Assembly (NCBI GenBank): GCA_003009755.1
Contig: PXUB01000047.1
Location: 1-53,920 of the forward strand
Direction: 5' to 3'
From: Thermoplasmatales archaeon SW_10_69_26
GTDB lineage: Archaea > Thermoplasmatota > SW-10-69-26
DNA: 53,920 nt
In this document: one piece after another, positions 25,531 to 25,899 of the stretch
How positions within the stretch are numbered: position 1 is the first letter of the stretch
Layout of the letters: every line of letters starts with the position of its first letter
Program-made: the position numbers and the translations under genes
Notes under the pieces: model-generated
Seen by the model: the letters and a program-made list of their open reading frames with translations, nothing else
The model's database searches: none
What the model was told of the DNA's origin: nothing

Positions 25531-25546
25531 TATGGGGGCACTGGGA

Positions 25547-25578
25547 TACTCACCTCGCCGGGGGGTGCCCGGCGCGGC
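25547..25578 (-). other. tRNA-Trp intron 2, in the T loop (59/60)
   Basis: 32-nt intron. BHB: the central helix TTCA (54-57) pairs with TGAG (one G-T), with a bulge AAG on the 5' side and TAT on the 3' side. The flanking helices are the T stem and an intron stem CCGC/GAGG continued by GCCGGG/CCCGGC. Cutting after the second base of each bulge leaves TTCAAA joined to T, the consensus 7-nt T loop. Confidence 0.88.
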
Positions 25579-25599
25579 TTTGAACCCAGATCGGCGGGT

Positions 25600-25681
25600 C
25601 TCTCCTACAGGGGTCAGTGCTCCAGTCAGTCAGCATCTCGACCGACTCAGCAGACCCGTACGGTCATCATACCCCAGATAA
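25600..25681 (-). ncRNA. tRNA-Trp intron 1 with C/D-box guide RNA
   Basis: 82-nt intron at 37/38. BHB: CTCC (positions 32-35) pairs with GGAG near the intron end, with bulges AGT and AGA cut after their second base. It carries box C ATGATGA (25670-25664), D' CTGA (25650-25647) and D CTGA (25617-25614). The guide before D (ACTGGAGCA) pairs with GCTCCAGT so that the fifth base faces C34. The guide before D' (CGGGTCTG) pairs with AGACCCG so that the fifth base faces position 39. Those are the two positions methylated by the intron of haloarchaeal pre-tRNA-Trp, so the function is well supported. Confidence 0.9.
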
Positions 25682-25719
25682 CTGGAGCCCACCATGATGC
25701 CGGGTTACACTATGCCCCC

Positions 25720-25899
25720 ATCGCCTTCGGGGCCGCTCCCGACAAGCGGGGGCCCGGCTTCCACGGGCGGTCCGGCCCGTCCGGGCGAGCCGTCGAAGGG
25801 AGGAGTTGTATTTAATCGTGGCGGATGACGGGAACCGTTGACAGCCCCGGCGACCGCCACGAGCCTGGGCGTAGCTGGAGGCGGGGAGAAGAGAGAAGG
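25720..25899. other. Gap between tRNA-Trp and secreted protein terminator
   Basis: About 180 bp. On the minus strand GATTAAATACAA near 25807-25818 is the only AT-rich box and could be the tRNA-Trp promoter, about 90 nt upstream. Otherwise I see only GC-rich sequence with no gene. Confidence 0.35.

Follow-up and report, generated by a model that had tools for sequence, protein, structure and literature searches.

A tRNA-Trp gene interrupted at both 37/38 and 59/60 in a class of Thermoplasmatota

Position 59/60 is among the listed non-canonical intron sites of archaeal tRNA genes, and archaeal tRNAs with several introns are known, chiefly from the Crenarchaeota and especially the Thermoproteales (PMC4090602). 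Among euryarchaea, two species are listed with multi-intron tRNAs (PMC4033280); a second, non-canonical intron has been described in Methanopyrus kandleri (tRNA-Glu, D loop; PMC3695527) and in Methanothermobacter thermautotrophicus (PMC4033280). The M. kandleri splicing endonuclease is an (alpha-beta)2 enzyme of constrained broad specificity, and the enzymes of A. fulgidus and Thermoplasma are listed as having narrow specificity (PMC6379350); euryarchaeal two-unit endonucleases are said to cut canonical motifs only (PMC4033280). Outside the archaea, the tRNA-Ile of Cyanidioschyzon merolae carries three introns, in its D, anticodon and T arms, all with strict bulge-helix-bulge motifs (PMC9602550).

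Here we describe a tRNA-Trp gene in a 53,920-nucleotide stretch of contig PXUB01000047.1 (hereafter, the window) from the draft genome of Thermoplasmatales archaeon SW_10_69_26 (GCA_003009755.1). The gene resembles those of the Thermoproteales in the 59/60 site, in its bulge-helix-bulge signals and in having a 37/38 intron alongside. It differs from them in that its host belongs to the Thermoplasmatota and has a two-unit, single-chain endonuclease, in that its motif is strict, and in that one such gene, rather than many, was found in the genome, although it is conserved over the whole class. With M. kandleri and M. thermautotrophicus it shares a second, non-canonical intron in a euryarchaeal host, but the M. 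kandleri intron lies in another tRNA and at another site. C. merolae has a comparable T-arm intron, but it is a eukaryote (a red alga) and the intron is at 53/54. We put the probability at roughly 90% that the tRNA-Trp gene at this locus is functional and essential and that both of its introns are genuine archaeal bulge-helix-bulge introns, the second having been gained once and being spliced by the ordinary enzyme. We found no report of such introns in Thermoplasmatota in the literature that we covered, outside of which lay most subscription papers and the tRNA databases. The original prediction that they are rare outside the Crenarchaeota is supported. The intron is thus of a known kind, in a lineage where reviews do not list one, and it is both more widespread and more conserved than could be seen from the window.

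Anatomy and copy number of the tRNA-Trp gene

The gene lies on the minus strand (25719 to 25533), a detail left out of the original prediction; it begins GGGGGCATAGTGTAACCCGG and finishes CCCAGTGCCCCCA (Table 1). Both introns, including the 32-nt insertion at 59/60, can be read directly in the sequence, as had been proposed. Their removal leaves a mature tRNA of 73 nt in which the CCA end is not encoded and the acceptor, D, anticodon and T stems are all intact, the anticodon stem (GTGGG/CCCGC) having five of five pairs. This doubly spliced 73-mer is called as tRNA-Trp by ARAGORN. The call is kept when only the 37/38 intron is retained and lost when the T-loop insert is retained. The gene was missed by ARAGORN in a scan of the raw window, and was not reported by the Rfam tRNA model in a search of the whole genome at either strict or relaxed settings.

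Table 1. Features of the tRNA-Trp gene, in positions of the window
Feature	Position	Strand	Description	Basis
tRNA-Trp(CCA) gene	25533-25719	minus	187-nt precursor with two introns	sequence read; ARAGORN on spliced form; orthologs
Exon 1	25682-25719	minus	nucleotides 1-37: acceptor 5' strand, D arm, anticodon arm 5' strand, anticodon CCA	
Intron 1 at 37/38	25600-25681	minus	82 nt; strict bulge-helix-bulge	
sR3-like box C/D guide RNA within intron 1	25612-25674	minus		Rfam RF01133; boxes and guides read
Exon 2	25579-25599	minus	nucleotides 38-59	sequence
Intron 2 at 59/60	25547-25578	minus	32-nt hairpin with 7-bp upper stem	position conserved in 7/7 class genomes
Intron 2 bulge-helix-bulge	25541-25589	minus	T stem 25589-25585/25545-25541; central helix 25584-25581/25552-25549; bulges 25580-25578 and 25548-25546	pairing and controls
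Exon 3	25533-25546	minus	nucleotides 60-73: T60, T stem 3' strand, acceptor 3' strand, discriminator A	

A second tRNA-Trp gene without the insertion would have counted against the original prediction, and none was found. A BLAST search of the source genome (2.8 Mb in 49 contigs, 95% complete) with the gene returned only the gene itself, and a sequence model of exon 1 (R1; 47.8 bits) had its sole match there; the model likewise has exactly one match in each of the seven genomes of the class. We recovered 40 other tRNA genes from the source genome with ARAGORN, as well as a tRNA-Tyr gene with a 37/38 intron that was read by eye, and none of these 41 has a T-loop insert. The tRNAs for Ala-GGC, Arg-GCG, Pro-TGG and Pro-GGG were not found in this genome and fall outside that check. 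A tRNA-like 3' end (GGTTCAAATCCCTCGGTCCCA) occurs elsewhere in the genome (L165; G000:C1:114050-114420) with no recognisable complete tRNA, and represents either an intron-broken tRNA or an integration remnant.

Two features of the surrounding DNA were also noted. Both members of family f1, to which the source genome belongs, have a TATA-like TTAAATA (window, 25800-25820; L032) at a distance of ~90 to 112 nt before the mature 5' end, a placement which suggests that the tRNA-Trp of this family may have a long 5' leader. A short Arg/Lys-rich ORF that resembles ribosomal protein L41e (e.g., KKMRRRKRAQKMRNK) is found just upstream of tRNA-Trp in several lineages (L125-L128, L040 and L038), which suggests a conserved neighbourhood.

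Splice motifs, splicing enzymes and order of events

Intron 2 has the strict hBHBh' form, with a 4-bp central helix and two 3-nt bulges on opposite strands. The T stem (CTGGG/CCCAG) supplies the outer helix, TTCA/TGAG is the central helix and AAG and TAT are the bulges; cuts between the second and third bases of both bulges (AA|G and TA|T) generate the T loop TTCAAAT, exactly as originally described. The complete central helix (4/4) together with the inner helix is reached by only ~0.15% of shuffles of intron 2. In isolation, the T arm with its insert folds at -28.0 kcal/mol (z = -4.2); in this fold the T stem and the intron hairpin are paired and the 3-4-3 region stays open, as is expected of a motif with two bulges. 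When 12 interrupted T arms were aligned, the motif was paired in 96.9% of cells, compared with 92.0% (sd 1.2) for shuffled partners and 18-60% when the partner was slid by one to three columns. The covariation score for these 12 introns was 0.153 against 0.076 (sd 0.018) in shuffles, a value matched by none of 500. In the central helix of these introns, 47 of 48 cells pair, despite the exon side being fixed by the T loop, and in the Aenigmatarchaeota gene (L132), where nucleotide 57 is G instead of A, the intron side has changed from U to C.

A search of the window for further copies of intron 2 found none, and a generic T-loop-intron pattern gave 138 matches in the source genome and 59 in a reversed control, an uninformative outcome. 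We also considered duplication of the T arm as an origin of the intron, prompted by the intron end CTGGGTGAAAC in one ortholog (G004), and set it aside, since this likeness to the T arm is largely forced by the splice motif.

Intron 1 also has a strict bulge-helix-bulge, in which CTCC (nucleotides 32-35) pairs with GGAG between bulges AGT and AGA. It contains an sR3-like guide (RF01133, 35.2 bits, E 1.2e-6) which scores below the Rfam gathering score of 41, yet has C, D', C' and D boxes. When the fifth-nucleotide rule is applied, counting upstream from each box, the D and D' guides target C34 and C39 of the tRNA that hosts them. A guide for positions 34 and 39 is likewise found in the tRNA-Trp intron of Haloferax (PMC4090602). 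The arrangement is thus the same, a 37/38 intron with a box C/D guide for the same two targets, except that nucleotide 39 is C here and U in Haloferax. The CTCC/GGAG helix is that of the source family; the orthologs in other families of the class (L035, L039, L036, L040 and L038, in G002-G006) have CTCC/GAAG, with a C34.A mismatch. In families f3 and f4, intron 1 is without clear C/D boxes, and the exon-complementary stretches are kept.

The splicing endonuclease was found in six of the seven class genomes as two PF01974 units in one ORF; it was not found in the seventh (G001), which is 75% complete. In the source genome, the two units form one 348-aa chain (L055, 1465-2511), and equivalents of the active-site Tyr, His and Lys are kept in the C-terminal unit (NYRVY, SHAPY and HSVNK). 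Its best match is to M. kandleri chain 5x89, over the full length, and it also matches A. fulgidus EndA. Alignment to the latter showed nothing inserted where the Crenarchaea-specific loop would lie, and the enzyme of G002 gaps over the loop grafted in 3p1y. At the level of sequence, then, the class enzyme does not appear to be an (alpha-beta)2 or epsilon-2 enzyme with a specificity loop. The ligase RtcB is present in all seven genomes.

The original prediction had implied that a broad-specificity endonuclease might be needed. This is not borne out: intron 2 in the source genome is strict, lacking neither a helix nor a bulge, and a narrow, two-unit, single-chain enzyme without the crenarchaeal loop should cope with a strict motif in a new position. 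We propose that a homodimeric endonuclease with two fused units per chain (alpha-prime-2-like) would cut each motif at both 3-nt bulges, and that RtcB would then join the exons. The 32-nt intron would be discarded to leave the loop TTCAAAT. Intron 1 also carries the usual tRNA-Trp box C/D guide.

Nor does the earlier suggestion hold that the T arm is unable to form until intron 2 has been removed. The T stem is itself the outer helix of the motif and, in the modelled fold, it can form before splicing, capped by the intron hairpin; what is missing is just the 7-nt T loop. Neither intron motif needs prior removal of the other. T-loop modification would be expected only once intron 2 has been removed. 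In C. merolae, which offers a model for the order of removal, Pus4 is inactive on a precursor that still has its T-arm intron, and the anticodon intron is the last to leave, after those of the D and T arms (PMC9602550). M. kandleri removes its canonical intron first and the D-loop intron later (PMC3695527). Even for the mature tRNA, minimum-energy folds wrongly pair the D loop with the T arm; because nearest-neighbour energies do not favour the cloverleaf even for the spliced molecule, folding energies are uninformative on the order of splicing.

Distribution, origin and retention of the 59/60 intron

An alignment of orthologous genes, which the original prediction had called for, shows that the insertion is not an oddity of one genome. 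All seven class genomes, from four families, have an insert at 59/60 (30, 32, 32, 32, 33, 33 and 75 nt) with the same motif, their genes being homologous and their agreement therefore not seven independent tests. The central helix is perfect in six, and G002 has TTCA/GGAA with an A.G mismatch. Except among close relatives, the intron sequences are dissimilar, whereas the position and a TTCA/TGAA-type helix are conserved. Since it is common to all seven available genomes of the class, intron 2 is almost certainly real and cut by the ordinary archaeal enzyme.

The source genome is a draft in 49 contigs, and an error of assembly or sequencing in a single metagenome bin might have been invoked. 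This reading, to which we give next to no credence, is refuted by orthologs with inserts of differing sequence in independent assemblies from different sites, among them PWVY01000336.1 (CSSed11_322R1) and JAJPHT010000008.1 (Centralia_MAG_189). The latter (L130) is labelled Proteobacteria bacterium; it has an archaeal two-intron tRNA-Trp and matches class genome G006, and is probably mislabelled.

It is also highly improbable that the insert is retained, whether in a pseudogene or in a functional tRNA whose T loop has been enlarged. Insertions in tRNA arms are sometimes marks of pseudogenes, as stated for eukaryotes (PMC4090602), but this is the sole tRNA-Trp found in each of the seven genomes, its four stems are unbroken, and the splice motif has been conserved despite turnover of the intron sequence. 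A spliced, functional gene is the reading that we favour.

Elsewhere in the Thermoplasmatota, the T loop is intact in 70 tRNA-Trp genes from 26 other families, a count that excludes truncated or doubtful matches. Moreover, a pattern scan of 390 genomes of the phylum for inserts of 15-45 nt found them in this class alone. When GTDB genomes were scanned for a Trp-like pattern, eight loci emerged, and each proved to be a tRNA-Trp with an insert at 59/60; because the pattern demands a Trp-like acceptor stem, the scan is silent on other tRNAs. Two of the loci belong to this class, four to MAGs labelled Thermoplasmata or Methanomassiliicoccales (L125-L128), one to Micrarchaeota (L129) and one to Aenigmatarchaeota (L132). 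The last two have 43 and 20 nt at 59/60, respectively, plus an anticodon-loop intron. In family f21, the T-loop inserts are 284 nt (L173; G025:C210) and 148 nt (L133; G033:C167), beyond the 11-129 nt quoted for archaeal tRNA introns (PMC4090602). The 37/38 intron of G025 is also very long, at about 200 nt.

The 70 intact genes in 26 other families make a gain of intron 2 in the ancestor of the class most likely. One could suppose, alternatively, that the intron is ancient, dating from an ancestor of much of the Thermoplasmatota and lost many times, given that 59/60 is also interrupted in the four Thermoplasmata MAGs, family f21 and the two DPANN MAGs. We consider this unlikely in view of those intact T loops, of the 390-genome scan and of intron sequences that are unlike between lineages. 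As judged from these comparisons, the simplest reading would be a single gain in the class ancestor, with the intron retained since, and further separate gains at 59/60 elsewhere. A broader, tentative suggestion, for which we would give somewhat less than even odds, is that tRNA-Trp has, at 59/60, a hot spot where introns were gained independently in Thermoplasmatota and DPANN. Under this suggestion, unrelated introns, 20 to 284 nt long and for the most part with a strict motif fit for a narrow-specificity endonuclease, were each acquired at this one phosphate by this class, f21, at least two other Thermoplasmata lineages and the two DPANN MAGs.

The 3' half of a tRNA gene, which contains 59/60, is a common attachment site of mobile-element integrases. 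Intron 2 might accordingly have been kept for breaking this half, much as an integrase-blocking role has been proposed for tRNA introns of Sulfolobus (PMC4090602). We think this improbable, since no other recovered tRNA of the source genome has a T-loop insert. More plausibly, intron 2 probably has no function of its own and would have been kept because, in a single-copy essential gene, only its exact deletion is tolerated.

Gene finders that allow for one intron miss this tRNA-Trp, as both ARAGORN and the Rfam tRNA model did. In the reviews, multiple or misplaced tRNA introns are tied to broad-specificity endonucleases, and those of euryarchaea are described as single and located at 37/38. 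That a whole class combines a two-intron tRNA-Trp with an endonuclease of two units in one chain suggests that no more than a strict motif is needed at a new site. With a carrier class and intron-free sister families, the gain of the intron is datable, and the tRNA-Trp of this class lends itself as a simple system in which to study the origin of tRNA introns and whether, once gained, they can be lost.
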